A stretch of 64,000 nt of DNA, taken from assembly GCF_024500045.1 (NCBI RefSeq), contig NZ_JTEO01000004.1, positions 558,001 to 622,000 of the forward strand, written 5' to 3'. Positions 21,992 through 34,496 of the stretch are shown here, one piece after another. A model generated the notes under the pieces. That model was not told where the DNA came from, did no database searches, and was given only the letters and a program-made list of their open reading frames with translations. The stretch's first letter is position 1; the number at the start of each line of letters is the position of its first letter. This DNA comes from Methanolobus chelungpuianus. GTDB lineage: Archaea > Halobacteriota > Methanosarcinia > Methanosarcinales > Methanosarcinaceae. Made by a program: the position numbers and the translations under genes.

Positions 21992-22591
21992 TTATATCAC
22001 CGCAAGTCTGCCCGAGTCTGTTATGCTGAAGCCGTCCTCGTCGGAGATATACCCCATGTCCTTAAGCTCCCTTATGTGGTTGTAGGCCATCCCCCTGGAG
22101 ATGCCCACCTTTGCGGCAATGGCGGTGACCGCCTTCTCCCCGAGCCTTATGTGCTCGAGGATGGCCTTCTTGGTGGGCGAGATGTTGAAGCTCAGGATAG
22201 GGAACTCCAGCATGAAGTTGTCTTCCTCCGTCACGTAGACGATCCTTTTGACCATATCACTGCGCGCATAGGCCCCGAACAGCGTCCCGAACGCCTGTGG
22301 TTTCCTGCCGCCGGAGACATTCAGTATAACTTGGTTGCCCCGGTCGTGCTCCTTCTCGATTGCATCCGCCACGTCCTGTGCAATCCTCACCGGATCGTAC
22401 AGCGAGGTGATAAGCTTCTTTATTTCGATTACTTTCCCGAAGGTGGCCTCCAGTATATTCTCAGCCTGAACCTTCTTGTCCACGGCTCCGTCTTCTGTGA
22501 TGATTATCACTTTTGAAGGAGAGAGGCGCGTTATGCAGACAAGCACGGGGTCGAGGGTGTATAGAGTGGTGATGAGTGTAAGATTGGGCAT
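21992..22591 (-). CDS. csa3: Csa3-like CRISPR regulator (CARF plus winged helix)
   Basis: The 199-aa product has an N-terminal Rossmann-like CARF domain: MPNLTLITTLYTLDPVLVCI with a loop and SPSKVIIITEDGAVDK, then a glycine-rich NQVILNVSGGRKPQAFGTLF, the ligand-facing motif of CARF proteins. The C-terminal third is a winged helix-turn-helix: KKAILEHIRLGEKAVTAIAA, GISRGMAYNHIRELKDMGYI and a wing ending at FSITDSGRLAVI. Csa3 proteins in archaea activate cas genes, spacer acquisition or array transcription, and bind cyclic oligoadenylate. It is read divergently from cas3 with 209 bases between. Csa3 is usually linked to type I-A, so its presence next to I-E is unusual. Its GC content is much higher than that of the neighbouring cas3. 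Confidence 0.85.
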   Translation of the reverse strand: MPNLTLITTLYTLDPVLVCITRLSPSKVIIITEDGAVDKKVQAENILEATFGKVIEIKKLITSLYDPVRIAQDVADAIEKEHDRGNQVILNVSGGRKPQAFGTLFGAYARSDMVKRIVYVTEEDNFMLEFPILSFNISPTKKAILEHIRLGEKAVTAIAAKVGISRGMAYNHIRELKDMGYISDEDGFSITDSGRLAVI

Positions 22592-22673
22592 CAGGAAGTG
22601 ATATGTTGATGATGCTATATATTTGTGTTTGGGATATGTAGGAGTATGTAATTTAGGGGGTGTTATTGTTTAA

Positions 22674-22740
22674 TTGCTGTATAGCAAAGTATATATCAGG
22701 GGTATACAATATTGCTGTTGTTAAATATTTGATATATCAG
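22674..22740. promoter_or_regulatory. candidate operator/promoter region between csa3 and cas3
   Basis: The 209-base divergent region holds a perfect inverted repeat TTGCT-GTAT-AGCAA at 22674-22687 and a direct repeat ATATATCAG at 22691-22699 and 22732-22740 (41 bases apart). A further half site ATTGCTG lies at about 22710-22716. TATA-like tracts (GTATATATC near 22689-22697; TTTGATATATC near 22729) could be box A elements. The likely regulator is the divergent Csa3-like protein; this is inferred. Confidence 0.45.
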
Positions 22741-22800
22741 ATAATTTGGTTATTTACAGTTAAGTTTTTTCATCTTTAATTCGCAGGAAGGGAGAATACA

Positions 22801-25380
22801 TTGGAAGAAATGTACAACTACTGGGGCAAGGCTGACGAATTATCCTGGCACCCATTGCCTTACCACTCTATGGATGTTGTAGCAGTGGCCGATCAATGGT
22901 GGGCGCATAGCCCGGCCATACGTCGCAGTTTCTCCCAGGAAACAGGCTTGTCCGAAGAACAAACTTATGCGTGGGTAATGTTTTTTATTGCCTTACATGA
23001 TCTGGGTAAATTTGATGTCCGATTCCAGATAAAGAATTTGAATCTGGCAACAGAAAACTATAAAACTAGTTTGCCTGCAGGCATTAGAACTAAAGATTAT
23101 TTCCACGGCGATGAAGGATACAAGTGGTTCGTGCTAGAAAGTGAAGACTTATATTTTATAGATGTTGATTACAAAAAACAAAGGTGGCTTCAAAATTGGT
23201 TTGCTTCGGTTGCAGGACATCACGGATCAATACCTACAAACACCGAACCTAATCTTCCTCCTTTTGTTGATGAATCCATAACATCGAAAGATTGTCTTGC
23301 TCGTCAAAGCTGGATACAAGAGTTGAACCGTATTTTTCTAGAACCTGCTGGTATTACTTTTGTTGATATTCCTACAAAGAATCCACCATTGTTGCTTGCA
23401 GGATTTTGTAGCGTTTGTGATTGGCTGGGTTCCAATAGAGAGTATTTTGATTTTCAACAGAAAGAATCATCGTTGGAAAAATATTTTCTTAGCCGAGAAA
23501 GAAATGCTTTAAAAGCTTTAAATGACTTTGGCTTGTTATCTCACATAGCTACTATCGGTGGAATGGAGGCCCTTTATCCAGATTACACTCCACAGAACAC
23601 ACAGACACTAATCGATAGGTTGTCAGTAGAACAGTCTTTGATCATAATTGAAGCGAATACCGGTAGTGGAAAAACGGAAGCTTCTTTGGCTTACGCTTCC
23701 AAATTATTGGCAGCGAGCTTAGCAGACAATATAGTTTTTGCTTTGCCAACACAAGCAACCGCAAATGCAATGCTGGAGCGACTGGAAGCTGTTGCCGGTA
23801 GAATATTCGAAAGCAATGATAACATTATCCTTGCACACGGGAAGCGGGACTCAAATAAACACTTCAAAAGAATGATTGAAAAGCACAAGCAATCTATCAG
23901 TCTTCAAGGTGATTTTGAAGCCGGGGCACAGTGTAGTGAATGGTTGTCTTCCAGTAGGAAACGTGCTTTTTTAGGACAAATTGCTGTAACAACTGTGGAT
24001 CAGGTCATGCTTTCGGCAATAAGACCGTTAAGGCATTATTTTGTTCGGAGTTTTGGGATTGGAAAAGGTGTCTTGATCATTGATGAAATCCATGCCTATG
24101 ATGCTTACATGTATGGTATTTTGGAAGCAGTTATCAAACAGCAGAAACAAGCTGGAGGTAGCGTTATTCTATTATCTGCGACCCTTCCGGCATACCAAAA
24201 GCAATCATTGTGTAGTGCTTGGGGTACTGATGCAGTGATAAATGAAAAGGGATATCCATTGATACTACAGGCAACAGATGACGATGTTCATACGTTTGCA
24301 TTAGAGACTTGGGATTGTGTTCAGGAAAAAACTGTTGAAATCGAATTGTGGAAGACAAATGATTGCTCAATATCCGTTGAACAACTTAAGCGGATAGTTA
24401 AAGCAGCACAAGAGGGAGCTAAAGTCGGCATTGTTTGCAATTTAGTTGATGATGCACAAAAGTATGCGCATCGCCTCAGTGAAATGACTTCTGTTCCAGT
24501 TGATATTTTCCATTCAAGATATCGATACTGTGACAGAATGAATAAAGAAAAAGCAGTATTGGATAATTACAGCAAAAAAAGTTCAGATCGAGGTAGGATA
24601 TTGGTTGGAACTCAGGTAATAGAGCAATCATTGGATATCGATTTTGATTGGATGATTTCTTTTGTATGTCCGGTTGACCTCCTATTTCAGCGTATGGGAA
24701 GGTTGCACAGGCATTTAAAGCAACGGCCGGAGTCATATAAAAAGCCACGATGCACGATCGTAATTCCAAATATCAACGATGCAGATTTAACGGAAGATCC
24801 AAAGAAAATATACGGATTTCACAATCTCATTTATAAAAATACCAGAGTTCTTTGGCGCACTCAATACTTGTTGGAGCAAAACAATGCAATAAAGTTTCCA
24901 GAGGCATATCGTGATTTGATCGAACGTGTTTATGCTAAGGACAGATGGGAAAACGAGCCGGAATCACTGACTAAACTACATGAAGAATACGAAACCGAGG
25001 AGTGGGCGAGTAAATGGATCTCAAAAGGATTAACTCAGGCCGATACTTACTTTATGGACTCTGAAGGCAATGCAAATGCGCTCACCAGAGAAGGGAAAAT
25101 GAATCTAAGTGTGATCCCGGTGACTGAAGACGGTGGAGTTAAACACTTTTTGGATGGTATCCCTGTTCCCAAACCCAATGATAAGTTTGATCGTGAGCTG
25201 TTGAGCCAAAACAGTCTGGGAGTTCCGGACAGCAATTTTTGGAGGTCCGTACTACCTAAAAGCCAGGATAGATTACATTACTTATCTATGGTGAAAACAA
25301 ATGAAGGATGGCGTTTTGACTATGATGGTGGTTACTTACTTTATACTCAGGACAGAGGTTTGCAGAAGGTTAAAAAATGA
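22801..25380 (+). CDS. cas3: Cas3 HD nuclease-helicase (type I-E)
   Basis: This 859-aa protein is the nuclease-helicase recruited by Cascade to nick and degrade target DNA. The N-terminal HD nuclease shows His22 in PYHSMDV, His66-Asp67 in ALHDLGKFD and later AGHHGS. The SF2 helicase has Walker A NTGSGKTEAS (Lys291), motif II DEIH at 428-431, LLSATLP (motif III) and VGTQVIEQSLDIDFDWMISF (motif V), then FQRMGRLHRH (motif VI). TTG 22801 is chosen as start because GGGAG at 22790-22794 lies six bases before it; ATG 22810 is too far. The DNA is more AT-rich than the genes outside the locus. Its last bases overlap the next gene's start (ATGA). Confidence 0.96.
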   Translation: MEEMYNYWGKADELSWHPLPYHSMDVVAVADQWWAHSPAIRRSFSQETGLSEEQTYAWVMFFIALHDLGKFDVRFQIKNLNLATENYKTSLPAGIRTKDYFHGDEGYKWFVLESEDLYFIDVDYKKQRWLQNWFASVAGHHGSIPTNTEPNLPPFVDESITSKDCLARQSWIQELNRIFLEPAGITFVDIPTKNPPLLLAGFCSVCDWLGSNREYFDFQQKESSLEKYFLSRERNALKALNDFGLLSHIATIGGMEALYPDYTPQNTQTLIDRLSVEQSLIIIEANTGSGKTEASLAYASKLLAASLADNIVFALPTQATANAMLERLEAVAGRIFESNDNIILAHGKRDSNKHFKRMIEKHKQSISLQGDFEAGAQCSEWLSSSRKRAFLGQIAVTTVDQVMLSAIRPLRHYFVRSFGIGKGVLIIDEIHAYDAYMYGILEAVIKQQKQAGGSVILLSATLPAYQKQSLCSAWGTDAVINEKGYPLILQATDDDVHTFALETWDCVQEKTVEIELWKTNDCSISVEQLKRIVKAAQEGAKVGIVCNLVDDAQKYAHRLSEMTSVPVDIFHSRYRYCDRMNKEKAVLDNYSKKSSDRGRILVGTQVIEQSLDIDFDWMISFVCPVDLLFQRMGRLHRHLKQRPESYKKPRCTIVIPNINDADLTEDPKKIYGFHNLIYKNTRVLWRTQYLLEQNNAIKFPEAYRDLIERVYAKDRWENEPESLTKLHEEYETEEWASKWISKGLTQADTYFMDSEGNANALTREGKMNLSVIPVTEDGGVKHFLDGIPVPKPNDKFDRELLSQNSLGVPDSNFWRSVLPKSQDRLHYLSMVKTNEGWRFDYDGGYLLYTQDRGLQKVKK

Positions 25381-26915
25381 CGGGTTTTAATTTACTTACC
25401 GAGGAATGGATTCCAGTTCAAAAGCAAGGGCATTTTGAGACTATCAGCCTGAAACGTTTGCTTTGTAACGATGAAGAATGGCAGCTCTGTCTATCCCGCG
25501 ATGATATGGAAATGGCTGCTTTGCAACTGATAGTTTGCATTGTGCAAGTTGTCTTCATGCCAGATGATGAAGATGATTTGTTTGCTTCTTATAGCAAACC
25601 GATGAAAGAGGCGGATTATGAGAAGGGAATATTGCCATTTATGGAATGGTTCGATTTATTGCATCCTGAGTATCCATTTATGCAGTGTGCAGATGTAAAG
25701 GCTAAAGATGAGAATTCAAAAGGCAATACTCCCAAAAACTGGACATCGTTCCAGAAATTATTCGTAGGTTTACCTGAAATTACCAGTGATTCCCCTTCCT
25801 CAAAAGCATTTTTTAATACTGTGGATGAAATCAATAATACATGGTATGGGGAAGTTGCGATTGCAATTTTTCAGCAGGCTACAAATGGTTTTAGTTTAGG
25901 TGGTTCGAAATTTGCAGTCGGTTTAAAAGGCTCTATGCCATCAACCACATTGATACAAGATAGTAACTTGAGAAAATCCATTTGGGCCAATGTACTTAAC
26001 AAAGAGTTTTTGCAGCAAAATACTTCGCTTTTTGATGGAAACAAGAATAATAATCCAACGTGGGTAGTTCTTCCTTCCTTTGACAAAAATAAGCCAGAGA
26101 GTGCCCAAAGTATTGGTTTATTAAGAGGGCTCTTTTGGCAACCTGCTAAAATAAAGTTATTCGTTGATGAGAAGCAGCAATTATCTGGATTTTTAACGAA
26201 TCCTGGAATGAGTTATTTTGAAGGATTTTGGAAACATCCACATACACCAATTGATGAAATTGCTTTTAAAGAAAACAAATCCAGCAAAAAACCATTTTTG
26301 TCTTTAAGAAGAGACTATCCAGTCTGGACTGAAATGCTAAGCTACTTTTATACCAAAAATGCCGGGCAAGAAGGAGCAAGCAGGGCTTTGGTTGTATCGC
26401 ACTATGAACAAGTGATTGGTCGTGGAAAAACAATAAATTTAGTTGTGGGTGGATATGTCAAAGGTGGTTCTCAAGAAAGTCTAGCCGCCAGAAAACATGA
26501 GTTATATGGAATCTCTTCTGGTTGGGAAGCTCAGATAGCAGAAATGAATATGTTAATTTCCTATGGTTTAGATGCTCAAAAGGCACTTGATTATGCAGTT
26601 TACTCATTTGGGAAAGAATTAAACGAAATCCGGACTGTGCGAAATAGAGAACAAGACTCTAATCTAATGAAAAAATTGAAAGAGCAAACGAAAAAGCATT
26701 ATTTTGCAGGTTCAGAGTCAGTTTTCCATAGTATAATGAGAAAGTTAGATGTTAATGAAGTATCAAACTACAAAAACCATTTTACTCAATTGGCTATGGT
26801 CACATATGATACTATTTTTTTGCCCTACGAACATGACCCTAAATTGCTAAAAGCGGTTGTTGCTGGTCGTAGAACACTAACTAGGAACCTTATGAAAATC
26901 GGAGAAAATAACTAA
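25377..26915 (+). CDS. cse1: Cas8e (Cse1/CasA) large subunit of Cascade
   Basis: The 512-aa product has the typical length of Cse1. It opens MTGFNLLTEEWIPVQKQGHF, as Cse1 proteins do (NLL-x-E-x-WIPV), has the SRDDMEMAALQLIVCIVQVV helix and the central GGSKFAVGLKGSMPSTTLI loop region, and ends in a four-helix bundle (EVSNYKNHFTQLAMVTYDTI; RRTLTRNLMKIGE). Cse1 recognises the PAM, opens the target duplex and recruits Cas3. The start ATG overlaps the cas3 stop by four bases, so the two are translationally coupled. The order matches bacterial I-E operons, and the gene is AT-rich relative to the host. Confidence 0.95.
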   Translation: MTGFNLLTEEWIPVQKQGHFETISLKRLLCNDEEWQLCLSRDDMEMAALQLIVCIVQVVFMPDDEDDLFASYSKPMKEADYEKGILPFMEWFDLLHPEYPFMQCADVKAKDENSKGNTPKNWTSFQKLFVGLPEITSDSPSSKAFFNTVDEINNTWYGEVAIAIFQQATNGFSLGGSKFAVGLKGSMPSTTLIQDSNLRKSIWANVLNKEFLQQNTSLFDGNKNNNPTWVVLPSFDKNKPESAQSIGLLRGLFWQPAKIKLFVDEKQQLSGFLTNPGMSYFEGFWKHPHTPIDEIAFKENKSSKKPFLSLRRDYPVWTEMLSYFYTKNAGQEGASRALVVSHYEQVIGRGKTINLVVGGYVKGGSQESLAARKHELYGISSGWEAQIAEMNMLISYGLDAQKALDYAVYSFGKELNEIRTVRNREQDSNLMKKLKEQTKKHYFAGSESVFHSIMRKLDVNEVSNYKNHFTQLAMVTYDTIFLPYEHDPKLLKAVVAGRRTLTRNLMKIGENN

Positions 26916-26949: not shown

Positions 26950-27390
26950 ATGGAAAAGTTTACTGAACTTCATCAACGTTTCTGGGAAACGATGGATAAT
27001 GGGCAACGTACCGAAATAAGGCGTGCTTCAAATCCTGAAGACTTGGAATGTTTGCCAGCATTTTACCATCTTATAAGATATCACAATCCAGGAGAAATAA
27101 GACAGCTGGCACGCGTAGCTTTCCTTTTGCCATTTGCTGAAAAGCATAGTGAAAATACCAAGCCTTTAGGCAGGCAACTCAGTGATGCAAAAATAAGTGA
27201 AAAGCGGATTTTTCAGATTGTACGTTCGAGTTCACCAAATGATTTGATCCAATTACGTCGTGCTGTTCAACAAGCTAAGTTAAGCAGCATCGATTGGGAT
27301 GTATTTGGTAAAAGCCTGTTCTATTGGGGAGAAAAATCAAAAAAACAACTGGTTCAAAGTTTCTTTGTTTATATGAAAGAAGAGGAATAA
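26950..27390 (+). CDS. cse2: Cse2 (CasB, Cas11e) small subunit of Cascade
   Basis: The 146-aa protein is short for Cse2 (often 160-200) but has the family pattern of Arg-rich helices: FWETMDNGQRTEIRRASNPE, CLPAFYHLIRYHNPGEIRQL and SEKRIFQIVRSSSPNDLIQL, followed by LRRAVQQAKLSSIDWDVFGK. The spaced Arg residues (T-E-I-R-R; Q-L-R-R) contact the crRNA and target strand. Two copies form the belly of Cascade. It begins 34 bases after cse1 and ends four bases before the next start. A clear ribosome-binding site is not obvious, but the ATG fits the family start. Confidence 0.92.
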   Translation: MEKFTELHQRFWETMDNGQRTEIRRASNPEDLECLPAFYHLIRYHNPGEIRQLARVAFLLPFAEKHSENTKPLGRQLSDAKISEKRIFQIVRSSSPNDLIQLRRAVQQAKLSSIDWDVFGKSLFYWGEKSKKQLVQSFFVYMKEEE

Positions 27391-27393
27391 ATC

Positions 27394-28608
27394 ATGGATG
27401 AAAAGAATTACGTCAACTACCACATTTTGATTTCGCACAGTCCATCCAATCTTAACCGGGATGACATGAACATGCAAAAAACCGCTGTATTTGGCGGAGT
27501 AAAAAGAACTCGAATATCCAGTCAGAGTTTGAAGAGGGCTATGAGACATTCAGACTACTATGAAAACCACATTGGAAAGCCAAGTGATCGAACCAGGCAA
27601 TTAGGAAAATTAACAGCAAAGTACGTAAAAGCTTTGCAAGACAAATATGATGAAAACTTGGTAAAATCTGTCATGTCGCTGATTTCTGGTGAACCGGAGA
27701 TCAAAGAGAACACTCAGTCTGGTGCAGTCGCAGCATGGACTGTGTCTGAAGTGGAACAATACTGCCATTTATATCAACAATTGCAGGGACAATTCCCGGA
27801 CGAGAAGGAATTTGAAAAAGAATGGAAAAATGCAACAGATAAAAAGAAGCTTCTGGATGATAAGACAAAAGTCAAGCTGTTCCGTGAAGCATTACAAAAT
27901 GGTCAGGACATTGCCTTATCCGGAAGAATGGCTACTTCAGGGATAATGACTATTGTAGATGCTTCTCTTGCAGTTGCACATGCAATCACAACACACACAG
28001 TAGATACCGACATAGATTGGTTCACTGCAGTTGATGATCTGAACCAGGAAACTGGAGAAACCGGTTCTGCTCACTTGGATACAACCGAATTCAGCTCGGG
28101 TGTGTTCTATCGTTATGCGAGCTTAAATCTCAGACAACTTCAAGAAAATCTAGGCGATTTAGACCGCAAACAGGCATTAGATATTGCTTCACACGTCCTG
28201 CACATGCTGGCAACGGTCGTACCATCTGCCAAACAGAATGCTTTTGCAGCTTTTAATCTTGCGGACTTTGCACTTGTTAGTTTTAGTGACCAACCAATCT
28301 CACTAGCAAATGCCTTCGAAAATCCTGTTAAGGCTAAAAAAGAAGGACTCATGAAACCATCAATTGAGGCCTTATTGAATTATCATAAGTCCATTTCAAG
28401 TGCTTATGGAATACAAAATGATATACAGTCTTTTTTTAGTACGATAGATTGTGAATTGAAACATAAAAATGAAGAGGCTAAGACCGAAACAAATGAAGAG
28501 TCTAAAACCGAGACTAAAATACCAAAAATGTCTAAACTTTCGGAATTAGAAGAATGGATAAAAAATGATGGTAAAAAATTGGGAAATGAGCCATGCAAGA
28601 ATATTTGA
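27394..28608 (+). CDS. cas7: Cas7e (Cse4/CasC) backbone subunit of Cascade
   Basis: The 404-aa product starts MDEKNYVNYHILISHSPSNL and has NRDDMNMQKTAVFGGVKRTR ISSQSLKRAMR (shown in two parts), the conserved R-x-S-S-Q-x-x-KRA motif of Cas7e that contacts the crRNA. ALSGRMATSGIMTIVDASLA and AVAHAITTHTVDTDIDWFT form the fold core and the thumb. Six copies line the crRNA in Cascade. At 404 aa it is longer than E. coli CasC (363); the extra length is a Glu/Lys-rich C-terminal tail around KNEEAKTETNEESKTETKIP, which is low-complexity and repetitive. The end overlaps cas5 by 16 bases. Confidence 0.95.
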   Translation: MDEKNYVNYHILISHSPSNLNRDDMNMQKTAVFGGVKRTRISSQSLKRAMRHSDYYENHIGKPSDRTRQLGKLTAKYVKALQDKYDENLVKSVMSLISGEPEIKENTQSGAVAAWTVSEVEQYCHLYQQLQGQFPDEKEFEKEWKNATDKKKLLDDKTKVKLFREALQNGQDIALSGRMATSGIMTIVDASLAVAHAITTHTVDTDIDWFTAVDDLNQETGETGSAHLDTTEFSSGVFYRYASLNLRQLQENLGDLDRKQALDIASHVLHMLATVVPSAKQNAFAAFNLADFALVSFSDQPISLANAFENPVKAKKEGLMKPSIEALLNYHKSISSAYGIQNDIQSFFSTIDCELKHKNEEAKTETNEESKTETKIPKMSKLSELEEWIKNDGKKLGNEPCKNI

Positions 28609-29279
28609 TAATTAAGTTGCAGGGTGCAATGCAGTCATGGGGTGGGCATACTTTTGAGGATTATCGCCCAAGCCATATATTTCCGACCCGCAGTGCAGTT
28701 GTAGGTTTACTGGGAGCTTGTCTGGGTATAGACAGATCGGATATCCAAAGCCGGGCAGATTTAAACGCCAGTTTTGAGTTTATCGTAAGGGCTGACCGCC
28801 GTAAGCTCAAAACAGAACATTTTGGCCGTATTGAGGAAAAGCCATTAAGGATGCAAAAATTGACAGACTATCATACTGTCCTTGATGCCCGCAAAGTTGA
28901 TGGAAGCCCAAGGTCTGATGCAATTATTTCTTATCGCGAGTATCTATGCGATGCCGAATTTACATTAGCTTTAGGCTTTAGGGATGATGCGGTTTACATC
29001 ATGGAAAGGGTTAAGAGTGCTATTCAAAAACCACATTATACTCCAGTTCTAGGGCGTCGGTCATGTCCTATACATCGGCCTTTATTTGAGAAAATAGTGC
29101 CAGCTGAAAATATTCAGCAAGCACTTGACCAGATAGAACCAAAGCAAGGCACATTGTATAGCGAACAAAAGATAGCAGGCTCATCGCCCATGCAAATTCG
29201 CGATGTCCCTATTCAAGATCCTGTAAGGCAGTTTGCTACCAGGACAATATATATTCTAGGAGATGAACATGTACTTTAG
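28593..29279 (+). CDS. cas5: Cas5e (CasD) crRNA 5'-handle-binding subunit
   Basis: The 228-aa product begins MQEYLIIKLQGAMQSWGGHT, then EDYRPSHIFPTRSAVVGLLG, the conserved Cas5e start with the W-G and P-x-x-S-x-V-x-G-L-L-G motifs. The middle holds VLDARKVDGSPRSDAIISYR EYL (in two parts) and TLALGFRDDAVYIMERVKSA, ending with VLGRRSCPIHRP, typical of CasD. It caps the 5' handle of the crRNA in Cascade. It overlaps cas7 by 16 bases and cas6e by 17, as in compact I-E operons, so the three are translated together. Confidence 0.95.
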   Translation: MQEYLIIKLQGAMQSWGGHTFEDYRPSHIFPTRSAVVGLLGACLGIDRSDIQSRADLNASFEFIVRADRRKLKTEHFGRIEEKPLRMQKLTDYHTVLDARKVDGSPRSDAIISYREYLCDAEFTLALGFRDDAVYIMERVKSAIQKPHYTPVLGRRSCPIHRPLFEKIVPAENIQQALDQIEPKQGTLYSEQKIAGSSPMQIRDVPIQDPVRQFATRTIYILGDEHVL

Positions 29280-29877
29280 TAAGTGGTTGCTCAAATCCAA
29301 TAAACCGGTAGATCCATATCAATTGCATAAGATAATATGGCAACTGTTCCCGGATAAAGTCAATGATGAACGTTCTTTTTTATTTAGAATTGAGAGCACC
29401 AGACAAAAATGTGAGCAACACATTTTGTTGCAGTCTATCTCTCAGCCACAAGCAACATCCGGTGAACTAATTATGTTAAAAGAACCAAAGGAGGTTCATT
29501 TTGATTTAAAAGCCGGGAATAGCTATAGATTCATGTTGTGTGCGAATCCAACTAAAAAAATCAATGACAAAGATGGAAAGACCGAAAATCAAGGCAAAGT
29601 AAGGGTACCTGTGATTCATGATGACGAAATAGTAGCATGGTTAAAAAGACAGTTAGTGGGTAGTGCTGAGGTTGATTCAGTTGAGTTGATTAAAAAGGAC
29701 TTACTTCATTTTTATAAGAATAAACCTGGTGACAAGCATATTGGTAAGATTCAAACTGTAACTTTCTTAGGAACTCTTACTGTAGAAGAGCCGGAATTAT
29801 TAACCGCTAAAATCTCAAACGGAGTCGGTCCTGCTAAATCTTTTGGTTGTGGTCTTTTGACTCTTGCCAGAATTTGA
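29263..29877 (+). CDS. cas6e: Cas6e (Cse3/CasE) crRNA-processing endoribonuclease
   Basis: The 204-aa protein cuts the precursor transcript within each repeat to leave the 8-base ATGAACCG handle. It starts MNMYFSKWLLKSNKPVDPYQ and the catalytic His is in LHKIIWQLFP; if the second ATG (29269) is used this is residue 20, matching His20 of E. coli CasE. The C-terminal glycine-rich end ISNGVGPAKSFGCGLLTLAR is the usual RAMP G-loop. It overlaps cas5 by 17 bases. The gene is AT-rich, like the upstream cas genes. Confidence 0.95.
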   Translation: MNMYFSKWLLKSNKPVDPYQLHKIIWQLFPDKVNDERSFLFRIESTRQKCEQHILLQSISQPQATSGELIMLKEPKEVHFDLKAGNSYRFMLCANPTKKINDKDGKTENQGKVRVPVIHDDEIVAWLKRQLVGSAEVDSVELIKKDLLHFYKNKPGDKHIGKIQTVTFLGTLTVEEPELLTAKISNGVGPAKSFGCGLLTLARI

Positions 29878-29902: not shown

Positions 29903-31082
<1,180 letters not shown>

Positions 31083-31209
31083 GGAGATTGCTATGCCAAC
31101 ATCGTGCATTTTTAGAGTGCTTCACTTGCTAAGTATAGTTTTTAGAATAAACTATTTGCCCAATGAAAGCAGCAACCTTTTTCCTCTTTAAAGGAATATA
31201 AGAGACACA
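31083..31209 (+). promoter_or_regulatory. CRISPR leader
   Basis: The 127 bases between cas2 and the first repeat are the leader, since the degenerate repeats are at the other end. It is AT-rich and includes a perfect inverted repeat ATAGTTT (31135-31141) / AAACTAT (31149-31155) around TTAGAAT. A TATA-like CTTTAAAGGAATATAAG lies at about 31186-31204, close to the array. It should drive the array and mark the integration end. Confidence 0.6.
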
Positions 31210-34200
31210 GAGTTCCCCACATACGTGGGGATGAACCGCAAGAGGAATACAAGAAATACATAAGAGGAGAGAGTTCCCCACATACGTGGGGATGAACCGA
31301 CAGCAGCTGTACTGGTACTCACGTACATGTGGAGTTCCCCACATACGTGGGGATGAACCGGCCATATCCTCGATGACCCAGGCCCGGAATGGGAGTTCCC
31401 CACATACGTGGGGATGAACCGATTCAGGTCTACGGTACTACCGGAGTGTATCTGAGTTCCCCACATACGTGGGGATGAACCGAGATGGCGGTGATGCTGA
31501 ATATGATGTCACATGAGTTCCCCACATACGTGGGGATGAACCGCTGGAGTCATCACATTAAACTATGAGTCTGATGAGTTCCCCACATACGTGGGGATGA
31601 ACCGGACCTTATAAACAAGATCACAACTGCGGAAGAGAGTTCCCCACATACGTGGGGATGAACCGGCCAGCCACCTCGAAAGGCGTGGATTTGGCAAGAG
31701 TTCCCCACATACGTGGGGATGAACCGTTCTGTGGTGGCGTTATTCTTTCTTCTACCAAGAGTTCCCCACATACGTGGGGATGAACCGGTAGCCGCCATGC
31801 TCGGGGGAGTAGCGGGAGGGAGTTCCCCACATACGTGGGGATGAACCGGTGTACTGGACCAATGCGCCCTCCGCAAAGATGAGTTCCCCACATACGTGGG
31901 GATGAACCGTAAGATATCGAACATTGTTATGCCCTCCCAAAGAGTTCCCCACATACGTGGGGATGAACCGGCTATGCTGACATTTCAGCTGAGATCCGGA
32001 AGGAGTTCCCCACATACGTGGGGATGAACCGAAATAAGCACCTGCGTGGAGTGTGGCGGGACAGAGTTCCCCACATACGTGGGGATGAACCGGTAATTAA
32101 AGGCACTCTTAAACCTGTTAAACGGAGTTCCCCACATACGTGGGGATGAACCGTAGGATCAATCTAGCGAAAATCGCTTAGTTGAGAGTTCCCCACATAC
32201 GTGGGGATGAACCGTTTTAGCGAATATCACGCCATATTTACGATATGAGTTCCCCACATACGTGGGGATGAACCGCTCCTTGAGGATACAGATATCATTG
32301 ACCTTTGGAGTTCCCCACATACGTGGGGATGAACCGCATCGACAGGACGAGGAACCACCGGATCGGGCGAGTTCCCCACATACGTGGGGATGAACCGGAA
32401 TCCCCCTGGCTTTGACCAGAACTTGAACCGAGTTCCCCACATACGTGGGGATGAACCGTATTTTGTAACGTTTCAATTGAAACAGAATACGAGTTCCCCA
32501 CATACGTGGGGATGAACCGTTCTTTGCAAGCACTGGCCGGATGTGCCAAAAGAGTTCCCCACATACGTGGGGATGAACCGAGCATCATCGATAACTTTGT
32601 TTCTCGGATTGTGAGTTCCCCACATACGTGGGGATGAACCGTCCGTTACGTTTACGCACTCGGCAATCTGGCAGAGTTCCCCACATACGTGGGGATGAAC
32701 CGATGTGGCCGACTCCGGTTACATCAATGTACAAGAGTTCCCCACATACGTGGGGATGAACCGAGAACAACATTATACGCACATAACGGGGGGAAGAGTT
32801 CCCCACATACGTGGGGATGAACCGAACACTTTTGCCGGAACCCTTCGCCCCCAGGAGAGTTCCCCACATACGTGGGGATGAACCGGGTAAACTTGGTATC
32901 CTGCAATGCAAGATCACGAGTTCCCCACATACGTGGGGATGAACCGAGATACTAATGTACTTCTGACGGTTGGGGAGTGAGTTCCCCACATACGTGGGGA
33001 TGAACCGAGGCCACAGCATCCAGGGCCCTGGAGAACTTAGAGTTCCCCACATACGTGGGGATGAACCGGCCGTATTATTCGATATCCTGGGGGTATTCAA
33101 GAGTTCCCCACATACGTGGGGATGAACCGTTGACAGGAGCTTCTTCTAACCCGAATGATGTGAGTTCCCCACATACGTGGGGATGAACCGGCATGCGATA
33201 CACTATCGGCACTGCGCAGAGCGAGTTCCCCACATACGTGGGGATGAACCGCTGTTCAGTTCAAACCTACCGGAGGCATGACAGAGTTCCCCACATACGT
33301 GGGGATGAACCGTCGTTAAATACCTAAAATATGACTGTATAGCCGAGTTCCCCACATACGTGGGGATGAACCGTAACCACATATTTTACATCACCGCAAT
33401 ATGTAGAGTTCCCCACATACGTGGGGATGAACCGTGTGGAGAAAATACAACGTAGGCTTTCCAAGAGAGTTCCCCACATACGTGGGGATGAACCGATTTG
33501 AATGCACTTTGTAGTTTTAGGGAGTCTGAGTTCCCCACATACGTGGGGATGAACCGGTCCGAAAGGACATAAGATGGAAGATAGACGAGAGTTCCCCACA
33601 TACGTGGGGATGAACCGCAGGCTGCGAGATCTGCAGCATATGCGAACCTGAGTTCCCCACATACGTGGGGATGAACCGAAATATGCTTTGCTGGGATTCC
33701 TGGCACTGGCGAGTTCCCCACATACGTGGGGATGAACCGAGGAGATTCCAGGGGAGAAGCCATAGACATCTGAGTTCCCCACATACGTGGGGATGAACCG
33801 GCTTTGAGAGTTTGAGGGGATAGGAGGAAAAAGAGTTCCCCACATACGTGGGGATGAACCGGAATATGTGTTCCAGTTCTCTGGACCTGTCAGGAGTTCC
33901 CCACATACGTGGGGATGAACCGCTTCAATTTGTGTTCAGATATCAATTTGAACAGAGTTCCCCACATACGTGGGGATGAACCGCGGTACTGAGTGAGCCC
34001 CAGGAGGCGGATGTAGAGTTCCCCACATACGTGGGGATGAACCGAGGATTCCTCGGTCAGAAATCAAGAGACTCGGGAGTTCCCCACATACGTGGGGATG
34101 AACCGATGCCATTCCACCAACATCATGAGACTGAATAGAGTTCCCCACATACGTGGGGATGAACCGCTGCATCTTAATCCCTCAAAAAGAATGCTTCAGA

Positions 34201-34288
34201 GTTCCCCACATACGTGGGATGAACCGGCAAAACTCAAACCGTACCAAAAAGTGCAACGGAGTTTCCCACATGTGTAGAGGATTCAACG
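31210..34288 (+). CRISPR. type I-E CRISPR array, about 51 repeats, 50 spacers
   Basis: Repeats are 29 bases, start GAGTTCCCC and end ATGAACCG, with the palindrome CCCCACATACGTGGGG inside; they closely resemble the E. coli I-E repeat and its 8-base handle. Starts follow 31210 + 61n: I checked 31210, 31271, 34138 and 34199, so spacers average 32 bases. The repeat at 34199 has lost one G; a final degenerate one lies at 34259 with several changes (GAGTTTCCCACATGTGTAG). The degenerate end is distal from cas2, so new spacers enter near 31210. Translations of the array on the minus strand are repetitive artefacts. crRNA processing is expected by Cas6e. Confidence 0.98.
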
Positions 34289-34424
34289 TACATGAGAATC
34301 GCATAGTGGCATAAGGTACTCATGTGGGTAACAGGTAACAATATTACAATTAGCATAGATAAAATGCTAAGTAAACATCAAAACACTATGAAACGGATTA
34401 GTAGACTTTAAAAAAAATTTTAAG

Positions 34425-34496
34425 AGCCTCGAGCGGGATTTGAACCCGCGGCCTCGTCCTTACCAAGGACGCGCTATACCCCTAAGCCATCGAGGC
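34425..34496 (-). tRNA. tRNA-Thr(GGT)
   Basis: The minus strand folds as a 72-base tRNA: acceptor GCCTCGA/TCGAGGC, D arm with GGGGTAT loop, anticodon stem CGTCC/GGACG around loop TTGGTAA giving anticodon GGT (complement at 34462-34464), variable AGGCC, T arm GCGGG/CCCGC around TTCAAAT, discriminator T. CCA is not encoded. The 3' end points to the CRISPR array, 137 bases away. The stretch 34288-34424 holds no gene. Confidence 0.97.

Follow-up and report, generated by a model that had tools for sequence, protein, structure and literature searches.

A Csa3-family regulator in front of exchangeable type I-E CRISPR effector modules in Methanolobus chelungpuianus

MM_0565 of Methanosarcina mazei Go1 is the nearest studied relative of the regulator described here. 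It is encoded on the opposite strand to cas8b, is leaderless and dimeric, and has the same predicted fold (PMC7465815). We analyzed its counterpart, csa3, in a stretch of 64,000 nucleotides of M. chelungpuianus (contig NZ_JTEO01000004.1, positions 558,001 to 622,000), hereafter the window, where csa3 faces a type I-E cassette of the clustered regularly interspaced short palindromic repeats (CRISPR) system. The window csa3 looks orthologous to MM_0565 by architecture, size, divergent position and leaderless promoter, and Methanosarcina-type members of the family are approximately 63-67% identical to MM_0565. MM_0565 fronts a type I-B system in a genome with type III-C, whereas the window csa3 fronts type I-E in a genome without Cas10. 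The I-E operon of Escherichia coli is likewise under transcriptional control from its promoter, through H-NS and LeuO; these proteins are unrelated to Csa3, have no ligand-binding CARF domain and are encoded outside the locus.

Two other archaeal regulators can be compared. Csa3a of Saccharolobus solfataricus (2WTE, 6WXQ, 6W11) shares its fold, CARF motif 2 and an acidic loop with the window protein, but belongs to a different cassette (I-A) and is only approximately 15% identical; its motif 1 for cyclic tetra-adenylate (cA4; G9, F14) is absent from the window protein, which is not matched by Pfam Csa3_N. HFX_2341 of Haloferax mediterranei is a CARF-HTH protein whose over-expression represses cas genes (PMC11434293), and the window Csa3 also matches Pfam HFX_2341_N. 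Unlike the window csa3, HFX_2341 is a global regulator located away from the cas locus. The window genome has a second CARF-HTH gene outside the window (L002:1462-2184, contig C6), which is more clearly of the HFX_2341/DUF6293 type.

Comparison of related loci revealed at least five or six exchanges of the I-E effector module behind csa3, while csa3, the promoter region and cas1-cas2 were kept. Two effector variants, A (in the window) and B, were 20-37% identical in cas3, cse1, cse2, cas7, cas5 and cas6. In four pairs of sister genomes with A at one locus and B at the other (G000/G123a, G133/G113, G136/G134 and G044/G046; G000 is the window genome, and the assemblies of G133 and G134 consist of one or two contigs), csa3 was 91-97%, cas1 96-99% and cas2 86-96% identical. 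The A and B labels formed a single split (one change) in the cas7 and cas3 trees and needed six changes in the cas1 tree, every one forced by supported branches. In the Csa3 tree, I-E-A needed five changes and I-E-B at least eight on supported branches; the cassette labels were scattered, and the order followed host lineage rather than cassette. The I-B and I-E Csa3 copies of G150 and G159 clustered together, without full support. Intergenic DNA was 85-88% identical between A/B sister pairs and 71-79% between same-cassette pairs, compared with 74-76% for shuffled sequences in the same gapped alignment. Since the intergenic sequence tracks csa3 and cas1-cas2 are constant, the effector module was replaced repeatedly between constant flanks. 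The conserved flanks, csa3 and promoter on the left and cas1-cas2 on the right, would provide the homology arms. The identities and the cas1 and csa3 trees thus support movement of bacterial-type I-E cassettes in and out behind an archaeal regulator. That CRISPR loci exchange modules is generally known, as is Csa3 itself; repeated exchange of I-E modules behind one Csa3 unit is new, in that it is not described in the literature compared.

The type I-E system of the window is complete and intact, and its genes are in the order given below, followed by the array:

21992 to 22591, minus strand: csa3, 199 aa, MM_0565-type, CARF at about residues 1-132 and winged helix at about 138-199 (open reading frame, family match, predicted fold)
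22592 to 22800, no strand assigned: divergent intergenic region, 209 bp, whose sequence tracks csa3 and not the effector cassette
22801 to 25380, plus strand: cas3, type I-E, effector variant A (NF007248, 928 bits)
25377 to 26915, plus strand: cse1/casA (family profile match)
26950 to 27390, plus strand: cse2/casB (family profile match)
27394 to 28608, plus strand: cas7/cse4 (TIGR01869, 324 bits)
28593 to 29279, plus strand: cas5e (family profile match)
29263 to 29877, plus strand: cas6e, final gene of the exchanged effector module (family match and locus comparison)
29903 to 30814, plus strand: cas1e, constant part, co-inherited with csa3 (family match, identities, tree)
30741 to 31082, plus strand: cas2e, start as listed (family match); the family match covers the protein only from residue 19 on, so translation probably starts near 30795 and the listed start lies too far upstream
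31083 to 31209, no strand assigned: probable leader, from cas2 to the first repeat
31210 to 34227, plus strand: CRISPR array, 50 repeats like GAGTTCCCCACATACGTGGGGATGAACCG and 49 spacers, all of 32 nt

The far end of the array has a degenerate last repeat (34228-34496 region), beyond which lies a tRNA-Thr(GGT) at 34424-34496 on the minus strand, a possible integration landmark. Within cassette A, the window cse1 (25377-26915) was 86% identical to that of G136 and only 48% to those of G133 and G123b; most genes around cse1 exceeded 80% in those comparisons, which we read as an extra exchange of the subunit that reads the protospacer adjacent motif. Methanolobus sp. Soudan_28 (G123) carries both I-E variants (L079, L080), each with its own Csa3; its two cas1 proteins are 99% identical, a possible sign of gene conversion or of a recent flank duplication.

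The window protein was confirmed as a Csa3-family CARF-winged-helix regulator of the Methanosarcinales MM_0565-type. It scored 115.4 bits against the NCBIfam model for Csa3 (TIGR01884; curated cut-off, 60.2), and Pfam HTH_5 and HFX_2341_N were matched by the C-terminal winged helix and the CARF half, respectively; at a threshold of E 0.1, Csa3_N (PF22662) was absent from the families listed. An AlphaFold2 model built on an alignment of 19 natural relatives (mean predicted local distance difference test score, 88) showed a CARF fold followed by a winged helix, without a catalytic domain. Fold comparison against the PDB placed 6wxq (Csa3 with cA4) and 2wte (apo-Csa3) at the top, at E 4e-8, with CARF ring nucleases as the next matches. 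Sequence-only PDB searches (phmmer, profile) missed the Csa3 structures, which were recovered by fold comparison alone. The original prediction, made from the DNA letters alone, of a Csa3-like CARF and winged-helix gene facing cas3 across 209 bases was exact in coordinates and gap, and the structure model that it called for agrees with the predicted family.

The pairing of csa3 with type I-E is recurrent and not due to chance. Among 186 genomes of the order, Csa3 was over the cut-off in 63 and I-E, scored by Cse4, was present in 25; Csa3 was found in 19 of the 25 I-E genomes and in 44 of the 161 others (Fisher p 4e-6, an indicative value given that the genomes are related). The loci that were fetched contained 18 divergent csa3/I-E pairs from several genera of Methanosarcinales-type genomes, two of them clipped by contig ends. 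Six I-E loci with readable upstream DNA had no csa3, and no substitute regulator was seen upstream of their cas3; another three loci could not be judged. None of 19 I-E genomes of the phylum outside the order had an adjacent Csa3, and one had a Csa3 over the cut-off approximately 0.9 Mb away; the pairing is therefore a feature of this archaeal lineage. This is the outcome of the survey of other archaea proposed with the original prediction. The cassette types reported for Csa3 in PMC8699464 are I-A, I-B, I-D and III, and I-E is not listed; Csa3-I-E pairs may already stand in the CARF classification tables of Makarova et al. (2020).

Csa3 is not specific to I-E. Members of the same family face I-B operons in Methanosarcina-type genomes and in M. 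psychrotolerans (G118), whose Csa3 is near-identical to that of I-E sister genomes, and have type III-A genes as their neighbours in four related loci. In a sister clade of the I-E-facing Csa3, seven loci (L094, L097, L104, L110, L114, L117 and L118) have a divergent Csa3 that faces an AddA/RecB-like protein of approximately 1020 aa, a UvrD-helicase with a C-terminal PD-(D/E)XK nuclease. Proteins of TPR, DdmD-like or PbeA-like type then follow in some of these loci, and the operon is possibly an undescribed defence operon. One Csa3, of the helicase-nuclease type, was found in plasmid records (Methanomethylovorans hollandica NC_019972) and none in phage records. A further Methanolobus bin has a close relative of Csa3, split over two frames (L132:1388-2123), that faces a Cas8b gene, again I-B. 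The notion of an archaeal regulator that has taken over a bacterial-type cassette thus holds in part: the regulator is archaeal Csa3 and recurrently fronts I-E, but is not tied to it. Unrelated neighbours of csa3 in sister genomes without I-E had been named as evidence against that notion; since csa3 there faces I-B or the helicase-nuclease instead, the objection is half justified, and the pairing is best described as a regulator plus an interchangeable cassette. That csa3 is a mere neighbour with no effect on the I-E operon is very improbable. The six I-E loci without csa3 or a visible substitute, together with loci where csa3 is present without any cas genes, fit such a passenger, but the divergent layout is kept in 18 loci of several genera through repeated cassette exchange, and the shared promoter element is conserved.

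The following features were recognized in the intergenic region:

22614 to 22624, minus strand: probable TATA box of csa3, AAATATATAG, approximately 27 bp from the start codon (from sequence)
22684 to 22697, plus strand: probable TFB recognition element (BRE) and TATA box of the cas operon, GCAAAGTATATATC (from sequence; conserved in all Methanolobus loci)
22688 to 22707, no strand assigned: conserved 20-bp element AGTATATATCAGGGGTATAC, which contains the dyad GTATA-N9-TATAC, overlaps the TATA box of cas and is proposed as the operator of Csa3

The short distance between its TATA box and start codon makes the csa3 transcript probably leaderless, as for MM_0565 (PMC7465815), for which that study found no DNA-binding motif. 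Alignment of eight Methanolobus loci (A, B and I-B) showed pairwise identity of 0.83-0.85 at 22680-22710, equal to that of the csa3 coding part, falling to approximately 0.3 beyond 22720. De novo motif search in 43 intergenic regions from all contexts, with symmetry not required, returned a 20-mer with a score of 306, compared with 86-115 for shuffled sequences. Complementarity about its best dyad axis was 0.59 (other axes, 0.37 or less), and the matching of its arms exceeded that of arms dealt among loci (2 of 2000 shuffles as good). In its strict form the dyad is found at a single position of the window and at two positions genome-wide; a palindrome search with an 8-base spacer returned nothing, the fitting spacer being 9. 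The element recurs with I-E cassettes of both variants, with I-B and with helicase operons; in Methanosarcina and helicase loci it is shifted by approximately 20 bases to the vicinity of the expected start site, and its arms resemble GTGAAC/GTTCAC. Judged from sequence, it is a candidate Csa3 operator, probably that of a repressor.

We consider it somewhat probable that Csa3 is a fixed, local, ligand-gated front end for transcription, which interchangeable defence cassettes have reused. A Csa3 dimer would bind the dyad at 22688-22707, overlapping the cas TATA box, and block TBP/TFB or polymerase, so that expression of the cas3-cas2 operon stays low; DNA binding would change when a ligand occupies the pocket of the CARF dimer. 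As Csa3 would act on promoter DNA, any cassette recombined behind the promoter would come under the same control, with no protein fit needed. Several observations weigh against this proposal. Purified MM_0565 bound its own promoter (dissociation constant, 285 nM) and CRISPR leaders and did not bind a cas8b promoter fragment, and its overproduction left cas mRNA unchanged; attempts at a clean deletion of MM_0565 in M. mazei were unsuccessful (PMC7465815). The binding and overproduction results form the strongest case against simple repression by apo-Csa3 and leave room for a role in adaptation; they may reflect a missing ligand. In addition, the Methanolobus element includes the TATA box, and some of its conservation is accounted for by the promoter; many loci have an imperfect dyad; the intergenic sequences are related, so that the shuffle tests overstate significance; and the choice of a repressor rather than an activator is suggested by the position of the element.

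The same study also bears on an adaptation role, in which Csa3 would bind the CRISPR leader and control cas1/cas2 or spacer integration instead of the effector promoter. Besides binding leaders, MM_0565 activates a cas1 gene (PMC7465815); in Sulfolobus, Csa3a is an activator of cas1/cas2 (review, PMC10013973); and in the loci compared the inheritance of csa3 is linked to cas1-cas2, not to the effector genes. However, cas1-cas2 come after the effector genes in the operon and the csa3-linked element is at the operon promoter, the strict dyad was not found in the leader in the window search, and csa3 holds its position in I-B and helicase loci without cas1e. We regard this role as rather unlikely. 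Control without any second messenger is suggested by type I-A, where co-repression by Csa3b was shown in Sulfolobus (He et al. 2017, as summarized in PMC10013973). By analogy, Csa3 and Cascade loaded with CRISPR RNA would occupy the cas promoter, and target DNA would remove Cascade and release the operon. Such a mechanism would account for Csa3 without Cas10, but gives no reason for the invariance of the CARF pocket. Moreover, the Cascades next to Csa3 proteins of 91-97% identity share only approximately 20-37% identity, so a conserved Csa3-Cascade contact is unlikely, and we judge co-repression here to be quite improbable.

The proposal of a ligand-gated front end leads to the CARF pocket. 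CARF motif 2, (D/N)x(S/T)x3(R/K), is present as N91-V-S-G-G-R-K97 and is invariant in 19 members except for the near-invariant G95, and the acidic loop E122-E-D124 is invariant or nearly so across cassette contexts; some ligand is therefore likely. Tuning of I-E by cyclic oligoadenylates, as in the original prediction, would have Csa3 bind cA4 from a type III system. Sulfolobus Csa3 does bind cA4 (PMC8844856, PMC8699464), motif 2 and the acidic loop are conserved, and the family adjoins type III-A genes in the four loci mentioned. In Sulfolobus Csa3, cA4 motif 1 is T-x-G9-F10-(D/N)-E, with Gly9 invariant in ten homologues (PMC8844856). This motif is absent from the window Csa3, which has TTLYTLDPV in its place; as residues 1-34 contain no glycine, Gly9 cannot be conserved. 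Motif 1 is a mark of the cA4-binding type and not of the TIGR01884 family as such. Models for Csm1, Cmr2 and the Cas10 palm (TIGR02578, TIGR02577 and PF22335), which detected the positive controls, gave no Cas10 match in the window genome or in the five further Methanolobus genomes that carry the pair, of which two are in one or two contigs. Clear Cas10 was found in 12 of the 63 Csa3 genomes of the order (p 0.06), and no cGAS/DncV-like nucleotidyltransferase (CD-NTase) matched in the window genome. A home-made cyclic oligoadenylate is thus unlikely as the ligand here; the predicted tuning is not supported, and cA4 cross-talk appears improbable. Weak Csm1 matches in Methanolobus (model positions 5-77, frames of approximately 220 aa) resembled HD-domain proteins and not Cas10, and weak CD-NTase matches in related genomes were frames of approximately 460 aa which, by their size, resemble CCA-adding enzymes; a CD-NTase was accordingly discarded as a source of the ligand.

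Cas10 is lacking in many Csa3 genomes, where the ligand is unknown (PMC8699464). We tentatively suggest, as a possible but not a probable reading, that Csa3 uncoupled from type III is a portable ligand-gated front end for I-E (A and B), I-B, III-A and helicase-nuclease cassettes, whose pocket senses a host-made nucleotide other than a cyclic oligoadenylate made by Cas10. Diadenylate cyclase was present in the window genome and all pair-bearing Methanolobus genomes tested, and Cas10 in none, which makes cyclic di-AMP one candidate.

The usual view of Csa3 is that it connects type III signalling to the control of type I systems. In the present case the protein and its pocket are conserved in species that lack a type III system, in front of I-E, a cassette type not listed for Csa3 in the literature compared, and effector modules are exchanged behind a regulator and promoter that behave as a fixed socket. 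With this locus, the long-standing question of which signal Csa3 detects where Cas10 is missing becomes testable in cultured methanogens, and the locus is also a natural experiment on the persistence of regulation through the exchange of cassettes.

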